A DNA stretch of 64,000 nt from Hypomesus transpacificus. Its lineage: Eukaryota > Chordata > Actinopteri > Osmeriformes > Osmeridae. A model generated the notes under the pieces. That model had not been told where the DNA came from, made no database searches, and saw only the letters and a list, made by a program, of their open reading frames with translations. Each line of letters opens with the position of its first letter. Within the stretch, counting starts at the first letter, position 1. A program made the position numbers and the translations under genes. Shown here piece by piece: positions 1 through 34,986 of this stretch. The DNA lies in contig NC_061075.1 in the NCBI RefSeq assembly GCF_021917145.1, forward strand, positions 5,169,240-5,233,239, written 5' to 3'.

Positions 1-100
1 TCAAGCCAATCCTGACGGGGTATTGGGTTAAGTTTTCAACCAGCAATAATCACGTCTCAGCTGGACTTCATAGACTACGAAATTGCCTCTGCGAAAGGAT
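1..100 (-). ncRNA. U4 snRNA copy, cut by window edge
   Basis: This holds the 5' 100 nt of the RNA; its 3' part lies outside the window. It has a private change at position 81 (RNA nt 20, A to U), the first base pair of the 5' stem-loop, so this copy may be slightly impaired. Its Staf-like site is at 345-361. Confidence 0.8.
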
Positions 101-515
101 AGCCAACCAAGCAAGAGGGAATTCGGCCTGGTGTAGGAGCTCAGCCGAGCCATGGACGGTGTCCCGTTCTTGGATTCAAGCCTATGTTCAGGACCAATTT
201 AGGATCGAGCGTGTTGGCGCATTCTTTCAAAATGCCTTGGATGTTACGGAAAGTATTGAGCAAAAGAGCGGGTGGGTGAGCTTTGGTGGGTGAGCTTTGT
301 TGGACTTTTGCGGAGCCAATCCTGAAGCATGACGCTAGTGCGAGAGCAAGGCATTGTGGGTAATATGCTGCAACGGTGCCTGCTGAGGCCAAGCGTGCTG
401 GGGAACTGTAAGGGTTCACGGGCCTCACGCTGAACCACCAAACCTACCTCTGTGCCAGAGAGCGCCGGGCGGCACAGCGGCTGAATCACCTGGGATCATT
501 GCCAAAACACGGACG

Positions 516-530
516 CACTGTCTTTCACAC
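516..530 (-). promoter_or_regulatory. 3' box (snRNA 3'-end formation signal)
   Basis: On the minus strand this reads GTGTGAAAGACAGTG, close to the vertebrate 3' box GTTTN0-3AAARNNAGA, and lies 6-20 nt past the RNA 3' end. The same sequence sits at this offset in every unit. It directs Integrator-dependent 3' processing of Pol II snRNAs. Confidence 0.65.
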
Positions 531-535
531 CGACG

Positions 536-681
536 TCAGCCTCCGTGGAGGCGATCAAAAATTGTCAAGGCTGGCTATATTTCAAGCCAATCCTGACGGG
601 GTATTGGGTTAAGTTTTCAACCAGCAATAATCACGTCTCAGCTGGACTTCATAGACTACGATATTGCCTCTGCGAAAGGAT
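536..681 (-). ncRNA. U4 small nuclear RNA, divergent form (reference copy)
   Basis: U4 pairs with U6 in the U4/U6.U5 tri-snRNP and is released when the spliceosome is activated. Read on the minus strand from 681, the RNA is 146 nt (human U4 is about 145). Nt 1-16 can pair with U6 (stem II). Nt 20-52 form the 5' stem-loop with a kink-turn that keeps U31, G32, A33, G43 and A44, the 15.5K-protein contacts. Nt 56-62 form U6 stem I with G-U pairs. Nt 85-118 form the central stem-loop with the loop UGAAAUAU. Nt 119-126 are the Sm site AAUUUUUG. Nt 130-143 form the 3' stem-loop GCCUC-CACG-GAGGC. By eye about 75% matches human U4 recalled from memory. Substitutions are paired at 27/46, 34/42, 86/117, 89/113, 93/110, 95/108 and 131/142, which is selection on structure rather than decay. 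The exact 5' end is inferred from alignment. Confidence 0.88.
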
Positions 682-725
682 AGCCAACCAAGCAAGAGGG
701 AATTCGGCCTGGTGTAGGAGCTCAG

Positions 726-745
726 CCGAGCCATGGACGGTGTCC
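726..745 (-). promoter_or_regulatory. PSE-like proximal element of the U4 promoter
   Basis: Minus strand GGACACCGTCCATGGCTCGG at about -64 to -45 from the RNA start, the normal place of the SNAPc-bound PSE. The CACC-N-T core resembles the vertebrate consensus; the 3' half is weak. No TATA box near -25, as expected for Pol II rather than Pol III transcription. Present in all full units. Confidence 0.5.
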
Positions 746-921
746 CGTTCTTGGATTCAAGCCTATGTTCAGGACCAATTTAGGATCGAGCGTGTTGGCG
801 CATTCTTTCAAAATGCCTTGGATGTTACGGAAAGTATTGAGCAAAAGAGCGGGTGGGTGAGCTTTGGTGGGTGAGCTTTGTTGGACGCGGAGCCAATCCT
901 GAAGCATGACGCTAGTGCGAG

Positions 922-938
922 AGCAAGGCATTGTGGGT
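922..938 (-). promoter_or_regulatory. ZNF143/Staf (SPH) site, distal element of the U4 promoter
   Basis: Minus strand ACCCACAATGCCTTGCT fits the Staf consensus WCCCRNMATSCMYYRCR at all but the last position. It lies about 250 bp upstream of the RNA start, the usual place of the distal enhancer of vertebrate snRNA genes. It recurs each 581 bp (345-361 in the first unit). Some units carry a change in its first base. Confidence 0.7.
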
Positions 939-1112
939 AATATGCTGCAACGGTGCCTGCTGAGTCCAAGCGTGCTGGGGAACTGTAAGGGTTCACGGGC
1001 CTCACGCTGAACCACCAAACCTACCTCTGTGCCAGAGAGCGCCGGGCGGCACAGCGGCTGAATCACCTGGGATCATTGCCAAAACACGGACGCACTGTCT
1101 TTCACACCGACG

Positions 1113-1258
1113 TCTGCCTCCGTGGAGGCGATCAAAAATTGTCAAGGCTGGCTATATTTCAAGCCAATCCTGACGGGGTATTGGGTTAAGTTTTCAACCA
1201 GCAATAATCACGTCTCAGCTGGACTTCATAGACTACGATATTGCCTCTGCGAAAGGAT
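1113..1258 (-). ncRNA. U4 snRNA copy
   Basis: Full length. It differs from the reference copy only at position 1115 in the last nucleotides, outside the 3' stem. Confidence 0.85.
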
Positions 1259-1693
1259 AGCCAACCAAGCAAGAGGGAATTCGGCCTGGTGTAGGAGCTC
1301 AGCCGAGCCATGGACGGTGTCCCGTTCTTGGATTCAAGCCTATGTTCAGGACCAATTTAGGATCGAGCGTGTTGGCGCATTCTTTCAAAATGCCTTGGAT
1401 GTTACGGAAAGTATTGAGCAAAAGAGCGGGTGGGTGAGCTTTGGTGGGTGAGCTTTGTTGGACTTTTGCGGAGCCAATCCTGAAGCATGACGCTAGTGCG
1501 AGAGCAAGGCATTGTGGGTAATATGCTGCAACGGTGCCTGCTGAGGCCAAGCGTGCTGGGGAACTGTAAGGGTTCACGGGCCTCACGCTGAACCACCAAA
1601 CCTACCTCTGTGCCAGAGAGCGCCGGGCGGCACAGCGGCTGAATCACCTGGGATCATTGCCAAAACACGGACGCACTGTCTTTCACACCGACG

Positions 1694-1839
1694 TCAGCCT
1701 CCGTGGAGGCGATCAAAAATTGTCAAGGCTGGCTATATTTCAAGCCAATCCTGACGGGGTATTGGGTTAAGTTTTCAACCAGCAATAATCACGTCTCAGC
1801 TGGACTTCATAGACTACGATATTGCCTCTGCGAAAGGAT
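1694..1839 (-). ncRNA. U4 snRNA copy
   Basis: Full length and identical to the reference copy in the RNA. Its upstream CCAAT-like sequence is changed to CCCAT near 2056. Confidence 0.85.
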
Positions 1840-2274
1840 AGCCAACCAAGCAAGAGGGAATTCGGCCTGGTGTAGGAGCTCAGCCGAGCCATGGACGGTG
1901 TCCCGTTCTTGGATTCAAGCCTATGTTCAGGACCAATTTAGGATCGAGCGTGTTGGCGCATTCTTTCAAAATGCCTTGGATGTTACGGAAAGTATTGAGC
2001 AAAAGAGCGGGTGGGTGAGCTTTGGTGGGTGAGCTTTGTTGGACTTTTGCGGAGCCCATCCTGAAGCATGACGCTAGTGCGAGAGCAAGGCATTGTGGGT
2101 AATATGCTGCAACGGTGCCTGCTGAGGCCAAGCGTGCTGGGGAACTGTAAGGGTTCACGGGCCTCACGCTGAACCACCAAACCTACCTCTGTGCCAGAGA
2201 GCGCCGGGCGGCACAGCGGCTGAATCACCTGGGATCATTGCCAAAACACGGACGCACTGTCTTTCACACCGACG

Positions 2275-2420
2275 TCAGCCTCCGTGGAGGCGATCAAAAA
2301 TTGTCAAGGCTGGCTATATTTCAAGCCAATCCTGACGGGGTATTGGGTTAAGTTTTCAACCAGCAATAATCACGTCTCAGCTGGACTTCATAGACTACGA
2401 TATTGCCTCTGCGAAAGGAT
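2275..2420 (-). ncRNA. U4 snRNA copy
   Basis: Full length. It shares the upstream CCCAT variant of the preceding copy, as expected if the two arose by duplication. Confidence 0.85.
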
Positions 2421-2855
2421 AGCCAACCAAGCAAGAGGGAATTCGGCCTGGTGTAGGAGCTCAGCCGAGCCATGGACGGTGTCCCGTTCTTGGATTCAAG
2501 CCTATGTTCAGGACCAATTTAGGATCGAGCGTGTTGGCGCATTCTTTCAAAATGCCTTGGATGTTACGGAAAGTATTGAGCAAAAGAGCGGGTGGGTGAG
2601 CTTTGGTGGGTGAGCTTTGTTGGACTTTTGCGGAGCCCATCCTGAAGCATGACGCTAGTGCGAGAGCAAGGCATTGTGGGTAATATGCTGCAACGGTGCC
2701 TGCTGAGGCCAAGCGTGCTGGGGAACTGTAAGGGTTCACGGGCCTCACGCTGAACCACCAAACCTACCTCTGTGCCAGAGAGCGCCGGGCGGCACAGCGG
2801 CTGAATCACCTGGGATCATTGCCAAAACACGGACGCACTGTCTTTCACACCGACG

Positions 2856-3001
2856 TCAGCCTCCGTGGAGGCGATCAAAAATTGTCAAGGCTGGCTATAT
2901 TTCAAGCCAATCCTGACGGGGTATTGGGTTAAGTTTTCAACCAGCAATAATCACGTCTCAGCTGGACTTCATAGACTACGATATTGCCTCTGCGAAAGGA
3001 T
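2856..3001 (-). ncRNA. U4 snRNA copy
   Basis: Full length, no change seen in the RNA. Confidence 0.85.
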
Positions 3002-3436
3002 AGCCAACCAAGCAAGAGGGAATTCGGCCTGGTGTAGGAGCTCAGCCGAGCCATGGACGGTGTCCCGTTCTTGGATTCAAGCCTATGTTCAGGACCAATT
3101 TAGGATCGAGCGTGTTGGCGCATTCTTTCAAAATGCCTTGGATGTTACGGAAAGTATTGAGCAAAAGAGCGGGTGGGTGAGCTTTGGTGGGTGAGCTTTG
3201 TTGGACTTTTGCGGAGCCAATCCTGAAGCATGACGCTAGTGCGAGAGCAAGGCATTGTGGGTAATATGCTGCAACGGTGCCTGCTGAGGCCAAGCGTGCT
3301 GGGGAACTGTAAGGGTTCACGGGCCTCACGCTGAACCACCAAACCTACCTCTGTGCCAGAGAGCGCCGGGCGGCACAGCGGCTGAATCACCTGGGATCAT
3401 TGCCAAAACACGGACGCACTGTCTTTCACACCGACG

Positions 3437-3582
3437 TCAGCCTCCGTGGAGGCGATCAAAAATTGTCAAGGCTGGCTATATTTCAAGCCAATCCTGACGG
3501 GGTATTGGGTTAAGTTTTCAACCAGCAATAATCACGTCTCAGCTGGACTTCATAGACTACGATATTGCCTCTGCGAAAGGAT
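3437..3582 (-). ncRNA. U4 snRNA copy
   Basis: Full length. Its Staf-like distal site carries the GTGGGG variant near 3838-3843. Confidence 0.85.
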
Positions 3583-4017
3583 AGCCAACCAAGCAAGAGG
3601 GAATTCGGCCTGGTGTAGGAGCTCAGCCGAGCCATGGACGGTGTCCCGTTCTTGGATTCAAGCCTATGTTCAGGACCAATTTAGGATCGAGCGTGTTGGC
3701 GCATTCTTTCAAAATGCCTTGGATGTTACGGAAAGTATTGAGCAAAAGAGCGGGTGGGTGAGCTTTGGTGGGTGAGCTTTGTTGGACTTTTGCGGAGCCA
3801 ATCCTGAAGCATGACGCTAGTGCGAGAGCAAGGCATTGTGGGGAATATGCTGCAACGGTGCCTGCTGAGGCCAAGCGTGCTGGGGAACTGTAAGGGTTCA
3901 CGGGCCTCACGCTGAACCACCAAACCTACCTCTGTGCCAGAGAGCGCCGGGCGGCACAGCGGCTGAATCACCTGGGATCATTGCCAAAACACGGACGCAC
4001 TGTCTTTCACACCGACG

Positions 4018-4163
4018 TCAGCCTCCGTGGAGGCGATCAAAAATTGTCAAGGCTGGCTATATTTCAAGCCAATCCTGACGGGGTATTGGGTTAAGTTTTC
4101 AACCAGCAATAATCACGTCTCAGCTGGACTTCATAGACTACGATATTGCCTCTGCGAAAGGAT
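4018..4163 (-). ncRNA. U4 snRNA copy
   Basis: Full length, no change seen in the RNA. Confidence 0.85.
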
Positions 4164-4598
4164 AGCCAACCAAGCAAGAGGGAATTCGGCCTGGTGTAGG
4201 AGCTCAGCCGAGCCATGGACGGTGTCCCGTTCTTGGATTCAAGCCTATGTTCAGGACCAATTTAGGATCGAGCGTGTTGGCGCATTCTTTCAAAATGCCT
4301 TGGATGTTACGGAAAGTATTGAGCAAAAGAGCGGGTGGGTGAGCTTTGGTGGGTGAGCTTTGTTGGACTTTTGCGGAGCCAATCCTGAAGCATGACGCTA
4401 GTGCGAGAGCAAGGCATTGTGGGTAATATGCTGCAACGGTGCCTGCTGAGGCCAAGCGTGCTGGGGAACTGTAAGGGTTCACGGGCCTCACGCTGAACCA
4501 CCAAACCTACCTCTGTGCCAGAGAGCGCCGGGCGGCACAGCGGCTGAATCACCTGGGATCATTGCCAAAACACGGACGCACTGTCTTTCACACCGACG

Positions 4599-4744
4599 TC
4601 AGCCTCCGTGGAGGCGATCAAAAATTGTCAAGGCTGGCTATATTTCAAGCCAATCCTGACGGGGTATTGGGTTAAGTTTTCAACCAGCAATAATCACGTC
4701 TCAGCTGGACTTCATAGACTACGATATTGCCTCTGCGAAAGGAT
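4599..4744 (-). ncRNA. U4 snRNA copy
   Basis: Full length, no change seen in the RNA. Confidence 0.85.
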
Positions 4745-5179
4745 AGCCAACCAAGCAAGAGGGAATTCGGCCTGGTGTAGGAGCTCAGCCGAGCCATGGA
4801 CGGTGTCCCGTTCTTGGATTCAAGCCTATGTTCAGGACCAATTTAGGATCGAGCGTGTTGGCGCATTCTTTCAAAATGCCTTGGATGTTACGGAAAGTAT
4901 TGAGCAAAAGAGCGGGTGGGTGAGCTTTGGTGGGTGAGCTTTGTTGGACTTTTGCGGAGCCAATCCTGAAGCATGACGCTAGTGCGAGAGCAAGGCATTG
5001 TGGGTAATATGCTGCAACGGTGCCTGCTGAGGCCAAGCGTGCTGGGGAACTGTAAGGGTTCACGGGCCTCACGCTGAACCACCAAACCTACCTCTGTGCC
5101 AGAGAGCGCCGGGCGGCACAGCGGCTGAATCACCTGGGATCATTGCCAAAACACGGACGCACTGTCTTTCACACCGACG

Positions 5180-5325
5180 TCAGCCTCCGTGGAGGCGATC
5201 AAAAATTGTCAAGGCTGGCTATATTTCAAGCCAATCCTGACGGGGTATTGGGTTAAGTTTTCAACCAGCAATAATCACGTCTCAGCTGGACTTCATAGAC
5301 TACGATATTGCCTCTGCGAAAGGAT
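5180..5325 (-). ncRNA. U4 snRNA copy
   Basis: Full length. The distal site has the GTGGGG variant near 5581-5586. Confidence 0.85.
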
Positions 5326-5760
5326 AGCCAACCAAGCAAGAGGGAATTCGGCCTGGTGTAGGAGCTCAGCCGAGCCATGGACGGTGTCCCGTTCTTGGAT
5401 TCAAGCCTATGTTCAGGACCAATTTAGGATCGAGCGTGTTGGCGCATTCTTTCAAAATGCCTTGGATGTTACGGAAAGTATTGAGCAAAAGAGCGGGTGG
5501 GTGAGCTTTGGTGGGTGAGCTTTGTTGGACTTTTGCGGAGCCAATCCTGAAGCATGACGCTAGTGCGAGAGCAAGGCATTGTGGGGAATATGCTGCAACG
5601 GTGCCTGCTGAGGCCAAGCGTGCTGGGGAACTGTAAGGGTTCACGGGCCTCACGCTGAACCACCAAACCTACCTCTGTGCCAGAGAGCGCCGGGCGGCAC
5701 AGCGGCTGAATCACCTGGGATCATTGCCAAAACACGGACGCACTGTCTTTCACACCGACG

Positions 5761-5906
5761 TCAGCCTCCGTGGAGGCGATCAAAAATTGTCAAGGCTGGC
5801 TATATTTCAAGCCAATCCTGACGGGGTATTGGGTTAAGTTTTCAACCAGCAATAATCACGTCTCAGCTGGACTTCATAGACTACGATATTGCCTCTGCGA
5901 AAGGAT
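5761..5906 (-). ncRNA. U4 snRNA copy
   Basis: Full length, no change seen in the RNA. Confidence 0.85.
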
Positions 5907-6341
5907 AGCCAACCAAGCAAGAGGGAATTCGGCCTGGTGTAGGAGCTCAGCCGAGCCATGGACGGTGTCCCGTTCTTGGATTCAAGCCTATGTTCAGGAC
6001 CAATTTAGGATCGAGCGTGTTGGCGCATTCTTTCAAAATGCCTTGGATGTTACGGAAAGTATTGAGCAAAAGAGCGGGTGGGTGAGCTTTGGTGGGTGAG
6101 CTTTGTTGGACTTTTGCGGAGCCAATCCTGAAGCATGACGCTAGTGCGAGAGCAAGGCATTGTGGGTAATATGCTGCAACGGTGCCTGCTGAGGCCAAGC
6201 GTGCTGGGGAACTGTAAGGGTTCACGGGCCTCACGCTGAACCACCAAACCTACCTCTGTGCCAGAGAGCGCCGGGCGGCACAGCGGCTGAATCACCTGGG
6301 ATCATTGCCAAAACACGGACGCACTGTCTTTCACACCGACG

Positions 6342-6487
6342 TCAGCCTCCGTGGAGGCGATCAAAAATTGTCAAGGCTGGCTATATTTCAAGCCAATCCT
6401 GACGGGGTATTGGGTTAAGTTTTCAACCAGCAATAATCACGTCTCAGCTGGACTTCATAGACTACGATATTGCCTCTGCGAAAGGAT
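6342..6487 (-). ncRNA. U4 snRNA copy
   Basis: Full length. Upstream CCCAT variant near 6704. Confidence 0.85.
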
Positions 6488-6922
6488 AGCCAACCAAGCA
6501 AGAGGGAATTCGGCCTGGTGTAGGAGCTCAGCCGAGCCATGGACGGTGTCCCGTTCTTGGATTCAAGCCTATGTTCAGGACCAATTTAGGATCGAGCGTG
6601 TTGGCGCATTCTTTCAAAATGCCTTGGATGTTACGGAAAGTATTGAGCAAAAGAGCGGGTGGGTGAGCTTTGGTGGGTGAGCTTTGTTGGACTTTTGCGG
6701 AGCCCATCCTGAAGCATGACGCTAGTGCGAGAGCAAGGCATTGTGGGTAATATGCTGCAACGGTGCCTGCTGAGGCCAAGCGTGCTGGGGAACTGTAAGG
6801 GTTCACGGGCCTCACGCTGAACCACCAAACCTACCTCTGTGCCAGAGAGCGCCGGGCGGCACAGCGGCTGAATCACCTGGGATCATTGCCAAAACACGGA
6901 CGCACTGTCTTTCACACCGACG

Positions 6923-7068
6923 TCAGCCTCCGTGGAGGCGATCAAAAATTGTCAAGGCTGGCTATATTTCAAGCCAATCCTGACGGGGTATTGGGTTAAG
7001 TTTTCAACCAGCAATAATCACGTCTCAGCTGGACTTCATAGACTACGATATTGCCTCTGCGAAAGGAT
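6923..7068 (-). ncRNA. U4 snRNA copy
   Basis: Full length. Upstream CCCAT variant near 7285. Confidence 0.85.
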
Positions 7069-7503
7069 AGCCAACCAAGCAAGAGGGAATTCGGCCTGGT
7101 GTAGGAGCTCAGCCGAGCCATGGACGGTGTCCCGTTCTTGGATTCAAGCCTATGTTCAGGACCAATTTAGGATCGAGCGTGTTGGCGCATTCTTTCAAAA
7201 TGCCTTGGATGTTACGGAAAGTATTGAGCAAAAGAGCGGGTGGGTGAGCTTTGGTGGGTGAGCTTTGTTGGACTTTTGCGGAGCCCATCCTGAAGCATGA
7301 CGCTAGTGCGAGAGCAAGGCATTGTGGGTAATATGCTGCAACGGTGCCTGCTGAGGCCAAGCGTGCTGGGGAACTGTAAGGGTTCACGGGCCTCACGCTG
7401 AACCACCAAACCTACCTCTGTGCCAGAGAGCGCCGGGCGGCACAGCGGCTGAATCACCTGGGATCATTGCCAAAACACGGACGCACTGTCTTTCACACCG
7501 ACG

Positions 7504-7649
7504 TCAGCCTCCGTGGAGGCGATCAAAAATTGTCAAGGCTGGCTATATTTCAAGCCAATCCTGACGGGGTATTGGGTTAAGTTTTCAACCAGCAATAATC
7601 ACGTCTCAGCTGGACTTCATAGACTACGATATTGCCTCTGCGAAAGGAT
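7504..7649 (-). ncRNA. U4 snRNA copy
   Basis: Full length. Distal site with the GTGGGG variant near 7905-7910. Confidence 0.85.
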
Positions 7650-8084
7650 AGCCAACCAAGCAAGAGGGAATTCGGCCTGGTGTAGGAGCTCAGCCGAGCC
7701 ATGGACGGTGTCCCGTTCTTGGATTCAAGCCTATGTTCAGGACCAATTTAGGATCGAGCGTGTTGGCGCATTCTTTCAAAATGCCTTGGATGTTACGGAA
7801 AGTATTGAGCAAAAGAGCGGGTGGGTGAGCTTTGGTGGGTGAGCTTTGTTGGACTTTTGCGGAGCCAATCCTGAAGCATGACGCTAGTGCGAGAGCAAGG
7901 CATTGTGGGGAATATGCTGCAACGGTGCCTGCTGAGGCCAAGCGTGCTGGGGAACTGTAAGGGTTCACGGGCCTCACGCTGAACCACCAAACCTACCTCT
8001 GTGCCAGAGAGCGCCGGGCGGCACAGCGGCTGAATCACCTGGGATCATTGCCAAAACACGGACGCACTGTCTTTCACACCGACG

Positions 8085-8230
8085 TCAGCCTCCGTGGAGG
8101 CGATCAAAAATTGTCAAGGCTGGCTATATTTCAAGCCAATCCTGACGGGGTATTGGGTTAAGTTTTCAACCAGCAATAATCACGTCTCAGCTGGACTTCA
8201 TAGACTACGATATTGCCTCTGCGAAAGGAT
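8085..8230 (-). ncRNA. U4 snRNA copy
   Basis: Full length, no change seen in the RNA. Confidence 0.85.
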
Positions 8231-8665
8231 AGCCAACCAAGCAAGAGGGAATTCGGCCTGGTGTAGGAGCTCAGCCGAGCCATGGACGGTGTCCCGTTCT
8301 TGGATTCAAGCCTATGTTCAGGACCAATTTAGGATCGAGCGTGTTGGCGCATTCTTTCAAAATGCCTTGGATGTTACGGAAAGTATTGAGCAAAAGAGCG
8401 GGTGGGTGAGCTTTGGTGGGTGAGCTTTGTTGGACTTTTGCGGAGCCAATCCTGAAGCATGACGCTAGTGCGAGAGCAAGGCATTGTGGGTAATATGCTG
8501 CAACGGTGCCTGCTGAGGCCAAGCGTGCTGGGGAACTGTAAGGGTTCACGGGCCTCACGCTGAACCACCAAACCTACCTCTGTGCCAGAGAGCGCCGGGC
8601 GGCACAGCGGCTGAATCACCTGGGATCATTGCCAAAACACGGACGCACTGTCTTTCACACCGACG

Positions 8666-8811
8666 TCAGCCTCCGTGGAGGCGATCAAAAATTGTCAAGG
8701 CTGGCTATATTTCAAGCCAATCCTGACGGGGTATTGGGTTAAGTTTTCAACCAGCAATAATCACGTCTCAGCTGGACTTCATAGACTACGATATTGCCTC
8801 TGCGAAAGGAT
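8666..8811 (-). ncRNA. U4 snRNA copy
   Basis: Full length, no change seen in the RNA. Confidence 0.85.
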
Positions 8812-9246
8812 AGCCAACCAAGCAAGAGGGAATTCGGCCTGGTGTAGGAGCTCAGCCGAGCCATGGACGGTGTCCCGTTCTTGGATTCAAGCCTATGTTC
8901 AGGACCAATTTAGGATCGAGCGTGTTGGCGCATTCTTTCAAAATGCCTTGGATGTTACGGAAAGTATTGAGCAAAAGAGCGGGTGGGTGAGCTTTGGTGG
9001 GTGAGCTTTGTTGGACTTTTGCGGAGCCAATCCTGAAGCATGACGCTAGTGCGAGAGCAAGGCATTGTGGGTAATATGCTGCAACGGTGCCTGCTGAGGC
9101 CAAGCGTGCTGGGGAACTGTAAGGGTTCACGGGCCTCACGCTGAACCACCAAACCTACCTCTGTGCCAGAGAGCGCCGGGCGGCACAGCGGCTGAATCAC
9201 CTGGGATCATTGCCAAAACACGGACGCACTGTCTTTCACACCGACG

Positions 9247-9392
9247 TCAGCCTCCGTGGAGGCGATCAAAAATTGTCAAGGCTGGCTATATTTCAAGCCA
9301 ATCCTGACGGGGTATTGGGTTAAGTTTTCAACCAGCAATAATCACGTCTCAGCTGGACTTCATAGACTACGATATTGCCTCTGCGAAAGGAT
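9247..9392 (-). ncRNA. U4 snRNA copy
   Basis: Full length, no change seen in the RNA. Confidence 0.85.
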
Positions 9393-9827
9393 AGCCAACC
9401 AAGCAAGAGGGAATTCGGCCTGGTGTAGGAGCTCAGCCGAGCCATGGACGGTGTCCCGTTCTTGGATTCAAGCCTATGTTCAGGACCAATTTAGGATCGA
9501 GCGTGTTGGCGCATTCTTTCAAAATGCCTTGGATGTTACGGAAAGTATTGAGCAAAAGAGCGGGTGGGTGAGCTTTGGTGGGTGAGCTTTGTTGGACTTT
9601 TGCGGAGCCAATCCTGAAGCATGACGCTAGTGCGAGAGCAAGGCATTGTGGGTAATATGCTGCAACGGTGCCTGCTGAGGCCAAGCGTGCTGGGGAACTG
9701 TAAGGGTTCACGGGCCTCACGCTGAACCACCAAACCTACCTCTGTGCCAGAGAGCGCCGGGCGGCACAGCGGCTGAATCACCTGGGATCATTGCCAAAAC
9801 ACGGACGCACTGTCTTTCACACCGACG

Positions 9828-9973
9828 TCAGCCTCCGTGGAGGCGATCAAAAATTGTCAAGGCTGGCTATATTTCAAGCCAATCCTGACGGGGTATTGGG
9901 TTAAGTTTTCAACCAGCAATAATCACGTCTCAGCTGGACTTCATAGACTACGATATTGCCTCTGCGAAAGGAT
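9828..9973 (-). ncRNA. U4 snRNA copy
   Basis: Full length. The spacer upstream has a private change near 10,122 and the GTGGGG distal variant near 10,229. Confidence 0.85.
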
Positions 9974-10408
9974 AGCCAACCAAGCAAGAGGGAATTCGGC
10001 CTGGTGTAGGAGCTCAGCCGAGCCATGGACGGTGTCCCGTTCTTGGATTCAAGCCTATGTTCAGGACCAATTTAGGATCGAGCGTGTTGGCGCATTCTTT
10101 CAAAATGCCTTGGATGTTACGTAAAGTATTGAGCAAAAGAGCGGGTGGGTGAGCTTTGGTGGGTGAGCTTTGTTGGACTTTTGCGGAGCCAATCCTGAAG
10201 CATGACGCTAGTGCGAGAGCAAGGCATTGTGGGGAATATGCTGCAACGGTGCCTGCTGAGGCCAAGCGTGCTGGGGAACTGTAAGGGTTCACGGGCCTCA
10301 CGCTGAACCACCAAACCTACCTCTGTGCCAGAGAGCGCCGGGCGGCACAGCGGCTGAATCACCTGGGATCATTGCCAAAACACGGACGCACTGTCTTTCA
10401 CACCGACG

Positions 10409-10554
10409 TCAGCCTCCGTGGAGGCGATCAAAAATTGTCAAGGCTGGCTATATTTCAAGCCAATCCTGACGGGGTATTGGGTTAAGTTTTCAACCAGCAA
10501 TAATCACGTCTCAGCTGGACTTCATAGACTACGATATTGCCTCTGCGAAAGGAT
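10409..10554 (-). ncRNA. U4 snRNA copy
   Basis: Full length. The base pattern just upstream of the start (AGCTAACC on the plus strand at 10,555) is shared with the next copy only, and its spacer has further private changes near 10,842-10,867, so units diverge towards the array edge. Confidence 0.85.
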
Positions 10555-10989
10555 AGCTAACCAAGCAAGAGGGAATTCGGCCTGGTGTAGGAGCTCAGCC
10601 GAGCCATGGACGGTGTCCCGTTCTTGGATTCAAGCCTATGTTCAGGACCAATTTAGGATCGAGCGTGTTGGCGCATTCTTTCAAAATGCCTTGGATGTTA
10701 CGGAAAGTATTGAGCAAAAGAGCGGGTGGGTGAGCTTTGGTGGGTGAGCTTTGTTGGACTTTTGCGGAGCCAATCCTGAAGCATGACGCTAGTGCGAGAG
10801 CAAGGCATTGTGGGTAATATGCTGCAACGGTGCCTGCTGAGTCCAAGCGTGCTGGGTAACTGTAAGAGTTCACGGGCCTCACGCTGAACCACCAAACCTA
10901 CCTCTGTGCCAGAGAGCGCCGGGCGGCACAGCGGCTGAATCACCTGGGATCATTGCCAAAACACGGACGCACTGTCTTTCACACCGACG

Positions 10990-11135
10990 TCAGCCTCCGT
11001 GGAGGCGATCAAAAATTGTCAAGACTGGCTATATTTCAAGCCAATCCTGACGGGGTATTGGGTTAAGTTTTCAACCAGCAATAATCACGTCTCAGCTGGA
11101 CTTCATAGACTACGATATTGCCTCTGCGAAAGGAT
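10990..11135 (-). ncRNA. U4 snRNA copy
   Basis: Full length with one change at 11,024 (RNA nt 112, C to U). This turns a G-C pair of the central stem into G-U, so the fold is kept. Confidence 0.85.
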
Positions 11136-11570
11136 AGCTAACCAAGCAAGAGGGAATTCGGCCTGGTGTAGGAGCTCAGCCGAGCCATGGACGGTGTCCC
11201 GTTCTTGGATTCAAGCCTATGTTCAGGACCAATTTAGGATCGAGCGTGTTGGCGCATTCTTTCAAAATGCCTTGGATGTTACGGAAAGTATTAAGCAAAA
11301 GAGCGGGTGGGTGAGCTTTGGTGGGTGAGCTTTGTTGGACTTTTGCGGAGCCAATCCTGAAGCATGACGCTAGTGCGAGAGCAAGGCATTGTGGGTAATA
11401 TGCTGCAACGGTGCCTGCTGAGGCCAAGCGTGCTGGGGAACTGTAAGGGTTCACGGGCCTCACGCTGAACCACCAAACCTACCTCTGTGCCAGAGAGCGC
11501 CGGGCGGCACAGCGGCCGAATCACCTGGGATCATTGCCAAAACACGGACGCACTGTCTTTCACACCGACG

Positions 11571-11696
11571 TCAGCCTCCGTGGAGGCGATCAAAAATTGT
11601 CAAGGCTGGCTATATTTCAAGCCAATCCTGACGGGGTATTGGGTTAAGTTTTCAACCAGCAATAATCACGTCTCAGCTCGACTTCATAGACTACGA
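11571..11696 (-). pseudogene. U4 snRNA copy truncated at its 5' end
   Basis: The first 20 nt of the RNA (U6 stem II segment) and all promoter elements are missing; LINE-derived sequence starts at 11,697. There is also a loop change at 11,679. It is the last unit of the array and is almost surely dead. Confidence 0.85.
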
Positions 11697-12812
11697 CGAG
11701 ACTATACTCCCTGATGGACGTCGGCGGCACATCCCCCCCAACACACACGTGCGTGAGATCCTCGGGCTCTGCCTCTTCAAGGATCGACATGTTCTTGCTC
11801 TCGCCAGGTCTGGGAGTGTGTTCTTTCAAGACCCAGGCGACGCACTTCTCAGACCACAGGATGCTGACCATGACCCTGCGATGGGAGTGGCCAGCCAGAC
11901 CAACAAGGGGGCCCTGGAGGATGAACACATCTGTACTCCAGGACCCCTCCATCACCCACTCCTTCTCTAGGTGCTACCTGGATTGGAGGACCTGAAATAA
12001 CTATTTACATCCAGATAGATTGGTGGGAAATGGTAAAGTCCCAGGTCAAGGGGTTCTTCGGAGGGGTGGGAAGGAGGAAGGCTCGGGAATAGAGGGCCCG
12101 CTTCCACCACCACAACGGGGCCCTGCAATGCCTGAGCCTCCTCCAACTCAGAGGATTCAACGTGACCCGGGAGCTGTCAGAGACCAAGGAACACCTGGCC
12201 ACACTCTATCAGGAAGAACAGGAAAGGAAGACTTTCAGGGATAAACTCCAGGGCCTGGAGGAGGAGGAGAAATGTACCAAACACTTTTTCCACAGGGCAC
12301 GGTCTAAACAACAAGGCATCCTGTCCCTCTGCAACACCACCAGCCAGACCGTCACGGACAGCAACGACATCAGGAGGGTGAATGAGGAGTTCTACGGCCG
12401 GCCGTTCGACACCAAGCCGGCGGACAGGACTCTGGCGGAAACCTTCCTCGACGGTCTGGACCAAATCAAAGAGGGGGGCTAGGGCGAGGAACCAGAGCTG
12501 AGTCTGGCGGAGCTCACCCAGGTCGTGCACGCCATAAACACCCAGAAGGCCCTTGGAACGGACAGGATCCCGGCGGAATTCTATCAGGCCTTCTGGGAAC
12601 TCATCAAGGGTGATCTGGCTCAGGTCCTCCGAGTGGTCCGAGTTGGCGCAGGGGGGGCCCACACTGGTGAATTAAAGTGTTTTGTTTTGAGGTAAGGGTC
12701 ATGGGGTAATTGTGTTTCGACAGATAGACACTGGGTGAAATGTGGTGGAAGTTTTTACCAATGCACTGTAAATAACTGTTTTTAATTTTGGTAAAACCAA
12801 TAAAGTATAAAA
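11697..12812 (+). mobile_element. Truncated Tx1/L1-like LINE remnant
   Basis: Plus-strand fragments match an APE-type endonuclease C-terminus (11,750-11,890: residues SRIDMFLLSPGL, then HFSDHRML) and, in another frame, the linker and start of the reverse transcriptase (12,030-12,650: KCTKHFFHRARSKQQGIL, later GTDRIPAEFYQAFW). There is a frame change between the two blocks, plus in-frame stops near 12,090 and 12,480. Coding similarity ends near 12,655. The AT-rich piece to 12,812, with AATAAA at 12,799, may be the 3' UTR joined by an internal deletion. The left end joins a truncated U4 gene. Confidence 0.7.
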
Positions 12813-13481
12813 GGTAGATCACCACTTAAAAAAAACTGTGCGAGTGGCGTCAACTGTGCCAGATAACGCGAGTCGAGATACAATTAAAAAACCAAAGTGT
12901 TTTTTTATGAACAGTAATCTATTAAAGTCTGGACTGATAACAAGGACCTGGAGTGTAGAGATTGCGCGGGAGCTTGACGAATGTTTTTTCATTTTTAGTT
13001 ATGCACTGTATTTTGCAGTTATTTAAAGGTAGGATATGTGATGTTATCTGCATTCCATGCAGTTGGGCATTTCCCCCTCTTGCACTCCGGTAATGGACAA
13101 TATGATGGACAGCTCTGAATTTTGATAAAAAATTTGAGTTGATAGTAAGGAGCTTATCGAACAATTATCATTCAGTACAAGCTAAAATAATACTGCTGGA
13201 TTAAATCTTCATGATAAGATGAAATCTAGTGAAAAAAACGTGTGTGAGGAAAACAAAATATATAAATATTACGAATAATCGTCCCAAATTTACTTTCTGC
13301 AGTCTGACTACAGTACGGTCATCTGCGTCGCCAATTCCAACAGTTTCCAAAATGTGCGTAGGCCTACGGGAGGGTCAGAGTTTGCGTGGAGGACCGCACA
13401 TTCTCCCGTCAAGTTTGTTTTTTATAAATCACAACCTTCGCGTGAAAAGTGGCGTACGCAAGCTTTATAAATGAGACCCCT
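12813..13481 (+). mobile_element. Harbinger-like non-autonomous DNA transposon, right part
   Basis: From the words GGTAGATCACCA to the terminal ATGAGACCCCT this matches the two arms at 54,450-55,141 and (inverted) 55,535-56,312. The end at 13,481 is the reverse complement of the left terminus at 54,450, so the element has terminal inverted repeats starting AGGGGTCTCATTTATAAA. It codes for nothing recognisable. Family name is by resemblance only. Confidence 0.55.
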
Positions 13482-14265
13482 GGTTAGACTTTTTGTTCGA
13501 CTTGAGACGGCGCCGAGGCTAGGTCACTGTGACGTATCTATCAAAGTACCGTGAAATCGATTTAAGAACAGCCCACAAGGGTTAAGACTTTGTGATCAAT
13601 GTCTATGTTCTGTAGAGCACTTATCCACCCAAGTACCTCAACAAAATGTTTAATGTGTGCCAAAATTATGTCCCCTAACAAGCCATGCCGATCAATTTGA
13701 TTTGGTCTCAGCATGCCATCTCTGACACCACTTATGTCTTCCATCATCTCTTGAATCCAGGTGTCCCTATCTGCCTTCGATCTTGTGCAGCTGCTTTGGT
13801 CTGAAGATAACCACGCCTCTTGCTTGCATGTAGGATTGAACATAAATACAGCACAGAAATAATTGTGGTTAGGAAATATATGTGGCATTAGGAAATAAAA
13901 GTCCCAATAAATAAATAAATAAACAAATAAATGTGGCATTAGGAAATAAAAGTCCCATGAAACAAATAAATGTTGTCTTCACAAAAATATAATTTTGAAA
14001 TAAGTAAATGGATTTATTTATTTAGGTAAACGGATTCAGCTATGTATTTTTATGATGTTACATTTCTATATTGTAGTGGAAATGTTGGTCATATGCATAG
14101 ATGTATGTGTATGAAATCTATAATCTTCTATGTTCATTGGTAAGAGACAGGAAGGGAAGATAATTAAGTTGAGTTCAAAGGAATGTGAGGTGCTGATGGC
14201 TCTCTGGGCAGCTTGCCCTGGGGGATGGGTGAAGCATCTTATATGGCCTTCTGTCCTCTGGCTAC
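13482..14265. other. AT-rich spacer, no gene recognised
   Basis: Holds a 27-bp direct repeat (13,880-13,906 and 13,931-13,957) joined by an ATAA-rich stretch. A minus-strand open frame at 13,562-13,939 has a protein-like segment (LGDIILAHIKHFVEVLGW) that I could not assign; it may be part of an old transposon. Confidence 0.5.
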
Positions 14266-15330: not shown

Positions 15331-15394
15331 TTACATTTAGTCATTTAGCAGACGCTCGTATCCAGAGCGACTTACAGAAAGTACAGGGACATTC
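15331..15394 (-). mobile_element. Tail fragment of a V-SINE/LINE-type retroposon
   Basis: The minus strand ends with the tail (AGTCGCTCTGGAT ... GCTAAATGACTAAATGTAA) seen in the full SINE at 56,498-56,684; the tRNA-like head is missing. Confidence 0.7.
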
Positions 15395-26100: not shown

Positions 26101-27907
26101 TTACATAACCTTGTGCAGGTACTGGCTTAGCACACATCCACATGTTCAGCAACCGCAGCAGATGACGCAACATTATGCCGCATTACCATGAACGGATGTT
26201 TACATACAAGTGATTAAACCAAGCAAGCAAGCAAATAAACATGGCTAATATATAGACAAACTTCCAAAGATGATCTTTATGTAGAAGATCATCTTTGGAA
26301 GTTTGTCTATATATTAGCCATGTTTATTTGCTTGCTTGCTTGGTAGCCATGTTTATTTGCCATGTTTATTTGCTCCCAAATTCAACCTTTTTCCCCTTAG
26401 CAGAGCAGTTAACTTTCATTGTATGATGACTTGACAGTCTATTAACTTGGGCTCAGAGGCAAGGTTAGAGCTAGGGCTTAATTTAATTAGAGGTGAAAAG
26501 GAGGCAGTGTTGAAAAGACACGTGACTGGGAGAAGAAGAAAAAAACTCCCCCATTATAAAAATTAGGTAAGCATGATGCCTTTTCCAATGCCACATGTGG
26601 TCGCAAGTAATCTGCCATATTAAAGTAGTCGGCAGATACCATAGATATAAAACAATTGCTTAAAATTGTGAGTATTCCCCCCATAATGGCAGGGAGAGAG
26701 AGTGCAAGATGAGAGGGAGAGTTACAGTTGTGTTCTTTAAATGACATTATTGTTGTTCACTTGTGTTTGTTTTGTATTGTTTGAGCCTCTGTCTAAACCC
26801 AATTTTCAACTCCTATGTGGATGGACAATAAAGTTTTTCATATTAAATTGGAAGAGCCAAAAAACGAAGAAAAAGTGCACGCTTGGATGAAATCTGGCGG
26901 GCGTCCGAGCCTGACCTCTGATGAGCTTAGCGTTGGTGTCCTCGTTGACCTTGGCCAGGTTGATAATGGTGCGTGCCTGTCGGGCGTAGCGTAGGGTGCT
27001 TAGGCTCTCCTCCACATTGCTGCCCGCCGGACTCAGCGTGGCGATCATAGCCGTCTTTGAGTTACCGCCCAAACTCTCTTTCAACAACCTGGATGCCCAC
27101 ACACGGAAAGAACATGACCTCTCAGGTAACCTTCCATCACTTAAGATGGTTGGCTCATAATTATGAGGCATTTTCAGACACTCAATGCTCGAGTGTTGTA
27201 TTCCAGCATGTGAGGACAGATTCCTTGTAGGTGTGTGTCAATGTGCTAAATTTTTCTCTGCACGTGAAGACAGACTTTCTTGCAGGGTGCGTTAGTGTGC
27301 GTGAGACCATGTGAAGACTTCCTTTTAGGGTGTGTGTGTGCGTGTGTATCCCTTGTCCCTCACCATGTGAAGACTGTCTTGCTGTGTGTGTGTGTGTGTG
27401 TGTGTGTGTCTATTCTTCTTGTTGTCTCACCATGTGAGGACTGACTCTCGGTAGGGGGTGAAGACCTTCCTCCTGGTCTGGGCCTGCTCTGACAGGGCTG
27501 AGATTACTTTGCCCAGGGTCAGCAGAGACTTGTTGATACTCGCCCCCTCCTACACACACAGGGCAAGGATGATGAGGCAGGCTGAACTTGAACTTCAATT
27601 CAATATCAGAAGCGAAAACAACAAAGATAAAGATAATCCTCCTTTTCACATTAATTTTAGACTATGAATTACTTTTCGATTAATTTTTTTGACAGCGCAT
27701 ATAGTAGTAATCCAGGTCAATATATTAGTCGGCGGTGACGTGAACCCTGGAGGCGACTACAGTACGGAGGGCAGAGTTGAGTGCATACCCTAAGACGGTC
27801 TCCGCTGGTCTGGGCTGAAGAGCAGCGCTCACTGCCTGCCAGGTCCACTAGGTTGATCCTACTGGTGATCCTGTGCTCGTGCTCCTCTTCCTCCACAAAC
27901 TCAGTCT

Positions 27908-27943
<36 letters not shown>

Positions 27944-30510
27944 CGTCACAATTAGTGGAAAGACACATATGATCTGATGAAAGCTGGTCATACACACAGA
28001 ATAATGTTGACACACACACACACGATTGTACCTTGGTCTGGGTCATAACCAGGGTGAAAACAGAATGGGATCTGGAGCTCTTGTCATTCATGCCCGTGGC
28101 TGCAGTGGCTCTCTGCTTGTTGCCAAGCTCCAGCCAGCCCTACGAACAGAGTGGGATCATTTTTTATGATTCACAATGGATTGAGCTCGAACTGTAAGCA
28201 GCAATAATATTAAACAACAATTATTGATTATATTCATGCTGAGTGCTTTTTGCTTACCTGAATGTCTGTGTAGGAACTCACCACATTCCTGTGTGGAAAT
28301 ACAAATCCAATGAATCCAAAAGACAAGCCACACATCACAAGCTACTTTTACCACAAAGCGAAGAAAATAATTGTTTGCTCACGTCGACAGCTCAGCAACA
28401 TATGGCCCATGAACTGGGTGTTCCCTCACTCTCAGCTAAAACAGATGAATCAAGATCAATATTATCACCATAAACAAGCAAGGTTATTTTTCAAAGACCT
28501 GTACAACAAATGCTACAGACCAGCCACCTCAAAGAGAGACACTGAACACCATGTATTTCTTTTTTTGTCTACTCACGGGTAATCTCTTGTGGTTTTGTTC
28601 ATCCATTGCCACCAGCAGGTCGTGGATTTTCTCGTTGTACACCTCAAAGTAGCTCATCTCTAGGTGACAGGTCACCTGTCGCGGCAATCAATGAAACAAA
28701 GTGTTTATACATCTGAAAACTAGCTGTGTTCCTTCTCCTCTGTATGTGACTGGATGCTAGATACTCGGCCTACCTCCTGAGTCTGAATTGAGGACAGTCT
28801 GGAGAAAAGCCCCTCACAGAATCTTGGGATAACGCCTGCTTCTTCTCCAAAACCCATCATACTGGAGAACAAGTTGAAATGCTTTCATATCTAAACAATA
28901 TTTAAGTTTAACCTGCTTTAAATACATAAAAAACTAAACTGAGGACGTTTGTGAGACACTTACGTGTAAGACTTTCCAGAGCCAGTTTGGCCATAGGCAA
29001 ACAAACAGGTGTTGAATCCTTCAAAAGCTCTCTCAAGGAGAGGCTTTGCTAGTTTCTCATACACTGTCTGCTGGCTGGCATATTCTGGGGTGCTTTTATT
29101 AACCGAGCAGAAGGAGAAGTCGTAGGTAAAGGAGTAACTCTGTTTGGTGTCTGGGTGTTGGACCACAGTCTCCTGGTTATCCATGAAGATCACTTGCAAG
29201 GCTTTCTCAGTCTTCTCCCTGAATACAAAAACAATCATTATTCTAAGACATGTTTTTATTAATTGTATTCATATAATGTAATATTATTTATGACGAACTC
29301 CAAAAGCAAAGTAGTTGAAAACAAAAGACAGGGACAATTCCAAAAAAGTTACATAATCCTCATACCTGATGTTGAATGGCCTCACTCGGACAGCAACTGT
29401 CACTGCACTGTTCTCCATTTTCATATCCTGCTGCTTCAGAACCTCGCTGAATAACACCAGAGGCTCGGTAGAAACGGCTGTCGGTGCAGGAGTCACCACT
29501 GCTGGTGAAGAGGTAGAGCTCCTCACAGTGCTAGCATTTACGTTGGGTTTTGAGCTAAGTAAAGGTGTAGTTTTTTTCACCAGGGCTGGAGACAAAGTTG
29601 AAGCAGGGTTCGCTTTCTGAACACCCGACAGGAACCTGTTTGAACGGGGAGTAGCAACTGGTTTGACCTTTTCGACGGTCATCTGTGGTTGTGTCTTTGG
29701 CTTGTCCATATTTGCAGATTTAACTATCACTGCTTTAGGGACTTCCCTCCCCGCCAATCGTTCAAAAACGTCCTTCTTGGAACTGATGTTCTCAAACACA
29801 GTCTTCCTGGTAGGTGTTGACGTTTTGCCCTGGTCCTCCAACTTGGCGACGTCCCCATTAAGTGTGGCTTTAGTCGTAGTCTGTTTTTGTATGTATCTGG
29901 CTGATCTGTCAATTACTCTGCCTTGTGTGGTCCCTGGATTTTGACATTCTTTTGATTTGTTTGTAGAAGCGGAGTCCTGCAAACTAACTGATCGAAATAT
30001 ACCTGCAGTTCCAGGTGTTCGAGGATTTGACTCTTGTAGAACTTTGGACTGCTGAGCGTCGGTGCCGCTGGCCCAACGTTGTCTTTCTGCGGCTTTGCCA
30101 GTGCTATTATCATTCTTTGCACTTTTGTCAATAGAGCCAGTCCTTGTTCTGCGTTGCAAGGTCAGTCGTTTCTCGGGTGCCGGGGTACTGTTGAGAGTGT
30201 TCTCGGTCATTGTCTTTTCGTGGTTTTCAGCACCCGTTTTCCTCCTTTGAAGCGTGAGTCGGCCACGGCCAGGTGTGCCACGGTCATGCCCACCGCTTTT
30301 TGAAAGAGCCGAAATGACATATGTCCTGTTTATCTCCTTCGATTTATCAATTGATCGGTCGTTGCACTTGAGGGATCCTGACGTTATCTCCGATTCCTTT
30401 ATTTCTGCCTGTTTTCGGTCCTTTGAACTGTCGCGTACTGGTACCTTTGGCATTAAGAAGTTGTCATAAAAAGCAGTGTGCTTTTTGGCAGGTATGGAGT
30501 ATAAAGACAT
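17128..30510 (-). CDS. kif14: Kinesin family member 14 (mitotic kinesin-3), complete, 29 coding exons
   Basis: Plus-end motor for cytokinesis; in mammals it binds PRC1 through its N-terminus and citron kinase through its C-terminal half. Exons (5' to 3'): 30510-29366, 29218-28964, 28861-28774, 28675-28577, 28435-28383, 28288-28258, 28139-28032, 27905-27789, 27549-27431, 27088-26916, 25870-25723, 25297-25234, 25053-24869, 24623-24521, 24413-24256, 24066-23919, 23678-23520, 23153-23021, 22911-22818, 22674-22536, 22206-22100, 20769-20669, 20496-20266, 19997-19810, 19330-19175, 18872-18750, 18567-18493, 17809-17668, 17501-17128. They sum to 5,016 nt in one frame, 1,671 aa (human 1,648). Basic N-terminal region 1-364; motor 365-~715 with P-loop GQTGSGKS (458-465), switch I NDKSSRSH (575-582) and switch II DLAGSER (614-620); coiled coil; FHA domain about 815-895; further coiled coil; C-terminal end SSNEDPRWV like human. 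The donor after 22,536 (GTTCGT) is weak. Confidence 0.96.
18151..18171. repeat. Poly-C run, 21 bases
   Basis: Uninterrupted homopolymer in the kif14 intron between exons at 18,493 and 17,809. Length is likely to vary or be misread. Confidence 0.9.
21157..21215 (+). repeat. 21-bp direct repeat in a kif14 intron
   Basis: ATAAGGCCGTGACATCACATC occurs twice in tandem and a third, partial copy follows. The surrounding intron (20,770-22,099) also holds a GT microsatellite near 21,001. Confidence 0.8.
21302..21440. repeat. Poly-C run (27) and AT microsatellite
   Basis: C homopolymer at 21,302-21,328 followed by TATA/ATAT tracts to about 21,440, inside a kif14 intron. Confidence 0.85.
26219..26343. 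repeat. Perfect 58-bp inverted repeat (long hairpin)
   Basis: Arms 26,219-26,276 and 26,286-26,343 are exact reverse complements with a 9-nt loop, in the kif14 intron between exons ending at 26,916 and starting at 25,870. A short direct repeat of GCCATGTTTATTTGC follows on the right. No terminal features of a known MITE were seen. Confidence 0.9.
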
Positions 30511-30589
30511 GTTCAGGCTTCTAACGTATGTCTTTAGAAACGTTTAAACCGATCCAAGCGAATAAATCCAGAAATCCGGCACATATGTC

Positions 30590-30776
30590 CCTGCAAAGTT
30601 AAGCTTGCATTTAAATTACTTGACAGTGTTAAAGGAAAACAGAGATCATCCAGTAAAACATAATTGTCATACTTTGAAACGTTACACCCGGTTAGCTGTA
30701 AGGCTAGCAAGTTTGCTCTAGCTTGTACGTAATGTTAGCCAAGTGTGGACTATCCGGTGATTTTATAGAATTTACC
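30590..30776 (-). other. kif14: Probable 5' UTR intron of kif14
   Basis: On the minus strand AACCAG|GTAAAT at 30,776 is a good donor and TTTGCAG|GGAC at 30,590 a good acceptor. That leaves an 80-nt untranslated leader before the ATG at 30,510. Human KIF14 also starts with a noncoding exon. The upstream exon would lie about 30,777-30,900. A TTTGAA motif on the minus strand at 30,903-30,908 could be a cell-cycle CHR element; this is a guess from motif and position. Confidence 0.5.
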
Positions 30777-31090
30777 TGGTTTTTAAAACAACTGAAATCA
30801 TAGGATCGTGTAGAAGTATTTGCAATCAAACCAGATACAACACAATTCGTCTTTTGTTTACCATTGCGTATTCCTCACTTCTTCCGTATGCCCGCCTCAA
30901 GATTCAAACTCCAGTCTCTAAACTTTCTGTTGGCCTATTGAAAACCATTACGTCAGCAAACGCTCCAAATATGGTCACGTAGAACTATCAAGAGACCGTA
31001 GGTGGCAGTGTTGAAGAATTTGGGAAATATCTATATTTTAACATCAATTTAAATCGTCTGGGACTAGCATTTTTGTGGAAAGACAAGTTG

Positions 31091-31111
31091 TTTATTTTCA
31101 ATCCATTTATT
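31091..31111 (-). terminator. ddx59: ddx59 polyadenylation signals
   Basis: Two AATAAA hexamers on the minus strand (31,091-31,096 and 31,106-31,111), about 80-95 bp after the ddx59 stop. They leave only some 180 bp to the probable kif14 first exon. Confidence 0.55.
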
Positions 31112-31186
31112 CATCTAAATATCACAAAACATAGACATGTACCGAGTGCATCCAAATAAATTACAAGTGTATTCCACAGAAGCCTT

Positions 31187-34100: not shown

Positions 34101-34986
34101 GCTCCCTGTCCTATCACTGTACCTCCAAGGCCCTCACAATCACTGGCAGGAGAAAGCCCACTGTCTTCCCAGAGCCGGTGTCTGCGCTGGCGACCACATC
34201 CCTGCCGGTTAAACCCACAGGCACCATCTGCATCTGTACTGGTGTAGGTGCCTGATAACCAGCCTTCTTCAAGTTGGCACCAAGAGTCACAGGGAAGTTA
34301 CAGTGCTCAAACTCAATGATGGGTCTGGCTACCTCTCTGCCCTGGGTGGCTATCCCCAGCTCCTGTTTTACCCTCTGCACCTGTTCCTCAGTAAGACCCG
34401 AAATGAATGGATCATCCTTGTAGGAATAGCCCTTCTCTAGGTCCCTGACAATAGTATCAGTGCTGTCGGCAGAAAACTGGTCTGACAGCGAGGTCCTTGC
34501 TTCCCCTATTTGTTTATGGTTAAATGCGTCCTCCCCAAGGCTCATTCCCATTTTAGCCAGGTGATTGGCTTTGCATTCCAAACTGCACACGTCGTTATCC
34601 GTACTGTCACAAATGTACTCCCCAAAGCGACCACACATGACGCAAACGGGCTCCCCGGGTTCGGGCCATCTCTGGCTCTTTCGGAATGACTTAACCGGTT
34701 CTTCCTCCTCCTCGCTATCTTCTGCCAGAGACCCCTCGGAATCCTCTGATGTATGAACAGAACTTATAGACGGGGATGGAGAGTCTGTGTCTTGGTGGAC
34801 TGGATGTCCTTTTGTTTTAGTGTTCAGATCTTTTTCCATACATTCTGTAGGCCTAGAAGTTGCAGAGGAAATATGGGTGATGGTTTCTGGAATGTCATCG
34901 TTGCCTTGGCGCACCTTACACTTCTTCGAAACTGAGTTTGTGCTTTCAATAGGTCGCTTTACCTTGAGTGCTCTTGGCATAAACAT
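31187..34986 (-). CDS. ddx59: DEAD-box RNA helicase DDX59, complete, 7 coding exons
   Basis: ATP-dependent RNA helicase with an N-terminal HIT-type zinc finger; human variants cause an orofaciodigital syndrome. Exons: 34986-34123, 33686-33513, 33108-33019, 32901-32650, 31958-31806, 31724-31596, 31462-31187. All introns are phase 0 and the exons sum to 1,938 nt, 645 aa (human 619). Seen in order: acidic, serine-rich N-terminus; zf-HIT cysteines starting [13 protein letters not shown]-motif region (APTPVQMQM); motif [11 protein letters not shown]; Ia PTREL; Ib TPGR; II DEAD, split between exons 3 and 4 (DE|AD); [27 protein letters not shown], the family's variant of HRIGRTGR. It lies upstream of kif14 on the same strand, as in human. 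An acceptor-like CTCTAG just before the ATG suggests a 5' UTR intron. Confidence 0.97.

Follow-up and report, generated by a model that had tools for sequence, protein, structure and literature searches.

Background

Variant, stage-specific and tandemly repeated genes for small nuclear RNAs (snRNAs) are known kinds of genes. U4 isoforms switch during the development of Xenopus and chicken (PMC4291461, citing Lund and Dahlberg 1987 and Korf et al. 1988), and given these cases a developmental U4 variant would not be new in kind. In zebrafish the maternal U1 and U6 genes are located in Region-2 of chromosome 4, while two U4 sequences in Region-1 of this chromosome are called somatic (PMC11075544); the same paper cites a preprint by Pagano, Dekker et al. 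2020 on an alternative early zebrafish spliceosome. Here we analyze a stretch of 64,000 nucleotides (nt) of the smelt Hypomesus transpacificus (assembly GCF_021917145.1, contig NC_061075.1, positions 5,169,240 to 5,233,239), called the window in the following, which starts with a tandem array of U4 snRNA genes at 1..11696 on the minus strand. Our data suggest, with a probability of about 0.6, that the array encodes a functional divergent U4 isoform used beside a canonical U4, most plausibly in the oocyte and early embryo.

The array resembles the described systems in several ways. Like the tandem or clustered U1 and U2 genes of fish (PMC3464664, PMC4696792), it consists of snRNA genes arranged in tandem, and like the fish U2 cluster it has a candidate proximal sequence element (PSE), distal sequence element (DSE) and 3' box in its spacer (PMC3544641), but it is made of U4 genes and the RNA itself is divergent. 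With the zebrafish maternal snRNAs, as described, the array shares a high copy number and a sequence type of its own; the zebrafish maternal set consists of U1 and U6, with U4 being somatic. If it is indeed a second class of U4, it would be a second vertebrate U4 type like the isoforms that switch in Xenopus and chicken. Its distinguishing feature is how much structurally compensated change a vertebrate U4 has taken up. A divergent tandem array of U4 genes was not described among the matches listed in the open-access literature, mostly judged by title and the start of the abstract, and none of the open-access matches to U4 primer or probe strings is a fish study by its title.

Organization of the U4 array

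A covariance search with the Rfam U4 model (RF00015) gave 21 matches in the window, all on the minus strand and together spanning 1-11715. They represent 19 intact genes, one gene broken at the right end of the array and one truncated where the window begins. The first-pass annotation, made from the sequence letters, had taken what looks like a 581-bp satellite for a U4 gene array and had proposed this very search; the scores bear it out, with 113.2 bits for one intact copy and 110.7 bits for the other 18, compared to a gathering score of 46. Even the broken right-hand copy and the edge-cut copy score 83.1 and 72.1 bits, respectively. U4 is the best Rfam family at every copy, and the identity as U4atac was rejected on this ground.

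The repeat unit is 581 bp long (one unit has 577 bp), and the units are spaced by 581 bp in 17 cases, 577 bp in one and 580 bp in one. The U4 RNA sequence is identical in 18 of the 19 intact copies, represented by the gene at 1698..1839 (minus strand; 110.7 bits). The remaining copy, at 10994..11135 (minus strand; 113.2 bits), has a single change in the central stem-loop, where nt 112 of the RNA is U instead of C. Across 18 complete aligned units we counted one variable column among 142 in the RNA and 12 among 439 in the spacer, four of the latter being one 4-bp deletion.

The array extends leftward outside the window, as its left copy is truncated by the window edge. The 5' part of this copy (1..100, minus strand) differs from the common sequence at one of 100 positions, where U replaces A at RNA nt 20; with this change the 5' stem-loop would lose its first pair. 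At its right end the array stops within a U4 gene, at 11696, the break falling between nt 20 and 21 of the RNA. The terminal broken copy (11575..11696, minus strand) thus has the U4 sequence from nt 21 on, with the first 20 nt and the promoter missing, while the match reported by Rfam extends to 11715. Rfam scans detected no U4 within the window besides the array copies. Patterns for the canonical and the variant U4 had 0 matches in viral, bacterial and archaeal contig collections, a result uninformative on fish.

Divergence under structural constraint

The U4 RNA of the array is like canonical vertebrate U4 (RF00015; human RNU4-2) in its length, its three stem-loops and the core residues of its kink-turn, and it shares the T-loop, stem III, the Sm site and the U6-pairing stems I and II. 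Using human RNU4-2 as printed in PMC13253345 as the reference, 114 of the 145 aligned positions are identical. The 31 substitutions (21%) come with one extra base inserted in the window RNA, seven two-sided pair swaps, the loss of one stem II pair and a terminal loop changed from UACG to CACG. The first-pass annotation had put the difference at roughly a quarter of the positions, which is correct as to the divergence and slightly high as to its amount. The U4s of human, mouse, rat and chicken, including their paralogs, in contrast show only three nucleotide variations among them (PMC4291461), and primers for the U4 of chicken DT40 cells (PMC4148344) equal the human sequence at 42 of 42 covered positions, 9 of which differ in the window RNA.

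We then compared the helices; the Rfam structure line supplied the pairs of the 5' stem-loop, and those of the central and terminal stem-loops were drawn by hand. Although 16 paired nucleotides are changed, 26 of the 27 canonical human pairs still pair in the window RNA and seven of them are changed on both sides; the unpaired decay of helices by which a pseudogene or satellite would be recognized is not seen. All ten pairs of the 5' stem-loop are kept, and the single lost pair is human 128/143, which closes the base of the terminal stem. Pair 23/49 is G-C in human and G-U in the window, and the human U-U at 36/40 has become U-G. The seven doubly changed pairs had been named in the first-pass annotation and all of them are real in the alignment to RNU4-2, with the pair numbers there following the window RNA, which runs one above the human numbering after about nt 92.

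The significance of these counts was assessed in 200,000 permutations, in which the observed substitutions were redistributed over paired positions carrying the same base. This null has means of 20.7 pairs kept and 1.7 double changes, and the observed values of 26 and 7 were reached by 16 and 2 of the 200,000 permutations, respectively. When the null is drawn over all 145 positions, the double changes were reached in 0 of 100,000 permutations and the pairs kept have P 0.003. The window RNA by itself folds better than its shuffled versions (z -2.69, with 3 of 200 shuffles as good), while its minimum-energy fold also contains non-classical pairs. These comparisons of sequences support the idea that the divergence arose under constraint on structure, and they agree with the earlier description of a structurally maintained RNA rather than a decayed copy. 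A decayed satellite is unlikely, and the reading as just a satellite was rejected on account of the compensated pair changes.

Functional sites and pairing with U6

Saturation editing of human RNU4-2 has defined regions sensitive to variants, among them n.6-11, which is depleted of variants (PMC13253345). The T-loop (n.62-70), stem III (n.75-78) and the Sm site (n.118-126) are three of the six sensitive regions of that study, and 0 of their 22 positions are changed in the window RNA (P 0.003). The conservation of the Sm site (0 of 9 positions changed) and of the kink-turn residues U31, G32, A33, G43 and A44 (5 of 5 kept) had been noted in the first-pass annotation and holds in the alignment. 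In the kink-turn region as a whole 4 of 12 positions are changed, three of them lying in two compensated pairs and the fourth being A29U. One of the three terminal-stem positions 129-131 is changed and compensated, the partner side of the stem being left out of this count, and one of the six positions of stem II at n.6-11 is changed (G7U).

The pairing with U6 was computed with human U6 in place of the fish's own. Pairs are created or strengthened by G2U and U4C, U13A is neutral, and one stem II pair is lost through G7U. In stem I, A60G and A61G turn A-U pairs into G-U wobbles, which requires no change in U6. The predicted energy of stem II is -22.8 kcal/mol for the window RNA and -24.1 kcal/mol for human U4, compared to a mean of -14.4 for random mutants; the corresponding values for stem I are -7.5, -7.9 and -4.4. 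The predicted joint U4/U6 fold of the window RNA is not the classical one; we prefer the stem-wise energies over the energy of the whole cofolded molecule. By these energies the stem pairing with human U6 is largely kept.

Promoter-like and 3' box-like elements

Several sequences around the genes resemble elements of snRNA genes, where the labels ZNF143, PSE and 3' box are given by resemblance to general motifs and consensus sequences. Coordinates are those of the gene that begins at 1839, and every element lies on the minus strand. A ZNF143/Staf-like site, TTACCCACAATGC, lies at 2090..2102 (-263 to -251) and is a candidate distal element; this form is present in 15 of the 19 promoters, in one of them 4 bp closer, while the other four have TTCCCCACAATGC. 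Two CACCCACC (CACCC) boxes at 2010..2031 (-192 to -171) are identical in all 19 promoters. So are the PSE-like element ACACCGTCCATGG at 1889..1901 (-62 to -50), a weak match placed by its position, and the 3' box-like GGTGTGAAAGACAG at 1676..1689, which starts 9 nt past the end of the U4 model. The 439 nt upstream of one copy contain no exact match to a TATA box or an octamer. Loosened patterns would be expected by chance 0.007 times (ZNF143) and 0.02 times (3' box) per unit and strand, values that are too favourable because the patterns were composed after viewing the sequence.

The ZNF143-like site is 201 bp upstream of the PSE-like site. In the U2 gene of toadfish the PSE is near -60, the DSE is 200-250 bp further up and the 3' box is 8-9 nt downstream (PMC3544641), and the spacing in the array agrees with it. 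The candidate elements resemble those of snRNA genes and sit at the usual spacing.

Sequences next to the array

The broken end of the array abuts a fragment that looks like the second open reading frame (ORF2) of a long interspersed nuclear element (LINE), at 11697..12665 on the plus strand, with the right limit approximate and with stops interrupting its frames. By its motifs it is presumably the C-terminus of an endonuclease followed by the start of a reverse transcriptase. Pfam gave no match for the two LINE-like ORFs tested, and no exact 12-mers of the array unit occur in 12601-14011 on the far side of the LINE junction. As of 2015 the only transposons reported to target snRNA genes were Keno and Utopia (U2), Dada-U1 and Dada-U6, according to PMC4640811. 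A transposon targeting U4 would be new, and a single junction cannot show targeting.

About 17 kb from the array, the exons of a kinesin gene and of DDX59 lie side by side at 28960-34992 on the minus strand. The former has a Pfam kinesin motor and is presumably KIF14, and the latter has the Pfam domains DEAD and zf-HIT. The closest protein to the DDX59 of the window, among the best 120 of 7474 matches, is the Hypomesus transpacificus DDX59 (97% identity to a query joined by hand). Aligned to the window, this protein falls into five segments with 656 of 657 residues matching, where neighbouring segments overlap by a few residues. This places the window in the delta smelt or a very close relative (Osmeriformes, Osmeridae), and the first-pass annotation was correct in taking it for fish DNA. 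With these Pfam-supported exons side by side, the window represents normal gene-bearing sequence rather than repeats alone. Three UnaL2-type LINE 3' ends were also detected, the one at 56625-56678 (plus strand) above the gathering score and those at 15335-15388 and 45253-45306 (both minus strand) below it. A near-perfect palindrome at 26216-26346, 92% self-complementary, matches unrelated small-RNA models below their gathering scores and is probably the remnant of a palindromic transposon, not a microRNA.

Discussion

The U4 genes of the array are very probably functional, considering the compensated helices and the intact functional sites. That they form a second class of U4 is probable as well, since the U4s of four other vertebrates vary at three positions compared to 31 here. 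We infer their transcription, their coexistence with a canonical U4 and their stage of use. The copies would be transcribed by RNA polymerase II from ZNF143/PSE-type snRNA promoters, with the transcript ending at the 3' box. The RNA would then load an Sm ring, bind SNU13/15.5K at the retained kink-turn and form stems I and II with U6. Most likely the isoform exists alongside a canonical U4 and serves a stage with a large demand for snRNAs, most plausibly the oocyte and early embryo. This last step draws on the precedents of Xenopus, chicken and zebrafish, and by analogy with them we give a bias toward oocyte and embryo an even chance.

A number of observations weigh against this interpretation. 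When the constraint is examined per helix, significance is reached in the central stem-loop (P 0.004) but in neither the 5' stem-loop (P 0.11) nor the terminal stem (P 0.33). G7U breaks a stem II pair within n.6-11, the region depleted of variants in human, and A29U falls in the kink-turn region. Pooling the six sensitive regions of PMC13253345 gives 6 of 43 positions changed, a depletion that is not significant (P 0.11, with the partner side of the terminal stem uncounted). Among nt 1-79, 6 of 43 positions in upper case in Rfam are changed versus 12 of 36 others (P 0.06). The U6 stems are stronger than those of random mutants with P values of only 0.04 and 0.10, and the whole-molecule U4/U6 cofold is weaker for the window RNA than for human, -9.0 versus -12.3 kcal/mol. 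Of the promoter elements, the PSE is matched weakly and 4 of 19 copies have an altered ZNF143-like site. The near-identity of the copies shows homogenisation, not selection, because genes and spacers are near-identical alike, and it does not show function. The zebrafish U4 sequences being called somatic is mild evidence against simply transferring the zebrafish picture.

The chief alternative is that smelts simply have this divergent U4, i.e. that the array is a normal gene cluster for the main and perhaps only U4 of the lineage, which drifted fast under structural constraint. The structure, the promoter-like elements and the U6 pairing would all suit such a working U4, tandem U2 arrays have been reported in fish (PMC3464664), and the window holds no second U4. 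We consider it rather unlikely given 31 differences in 145 positions against three variable positions in human, mouse, rat and chicken (PMC4291461), and given that the window RNA departs at 9 of the 42 positions at which the primers of the chicken DT40 study match human (PMC4148344). It is also possible that the array is a second U4 used in some other tissue, such as brain or testis, or at a low general level with no special stage, as the somatic label of the zebrafish Region-1 U4 sequences would allow (PMC11075544). This is unlikely, as the switches of vertebrate snRNA isoforms described in PMC11075544 and PMC4291461 run between early and later development. Lastly, a dead satellite, in which a former variant gene was amplified as a repeat and its transcripts are absent or destroyed, could account for the uniformity of gene and spacer and for the four altered ZNF143-like sites, and would have a parallel in the unstable variant U1 snRNAs of human, which lack TOE1 processing and are thereby open to the exosome (PMC7328512), but it is very unlikely with a divergence built of paired changes, an intact Sm site, T-loop and stem III, and no variation among 19 of 19 copies in the PSE-like, CACCC and 3'-box-like elements.

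Returning to a functional isoform beside the canonical U4, we may speculate further that smelts keep a second, ~21% diverged and structurally tuned U4 lineage that gives an alternative small nuclear ribonucleoprotein complex (tri-snRNP) in eggs and early embryos, an idea we regard as doubtful. The wobbles in stem I (A60G and A61G) together with the lost nt 7 pair of stem II might make the U4/U6 duplex somewhat easier for Brr2 to unwind. Alternatively, the divergent U4 might be matched by a U6 variant that differs at nt 51, 52 and 68.

U4 is under strong constraint in vertebrates, and in human RNU4-2 a single change can cause disease (PMC13253345). A natural U4 with 31 changes, seven pair swaps and an unaltered T-loop, stem III and Sm site amounts to an experiment, already performed by nature, on the parts of U4 that can change jointly. 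If the isoform is specific to a stage, variant spliceosomes of eggs and embryos would be extended to a divergent U4 in another order of fish. If smelts do keep a second tuned lineage, the co-evolution of U4 and U6 could be read directly from it.

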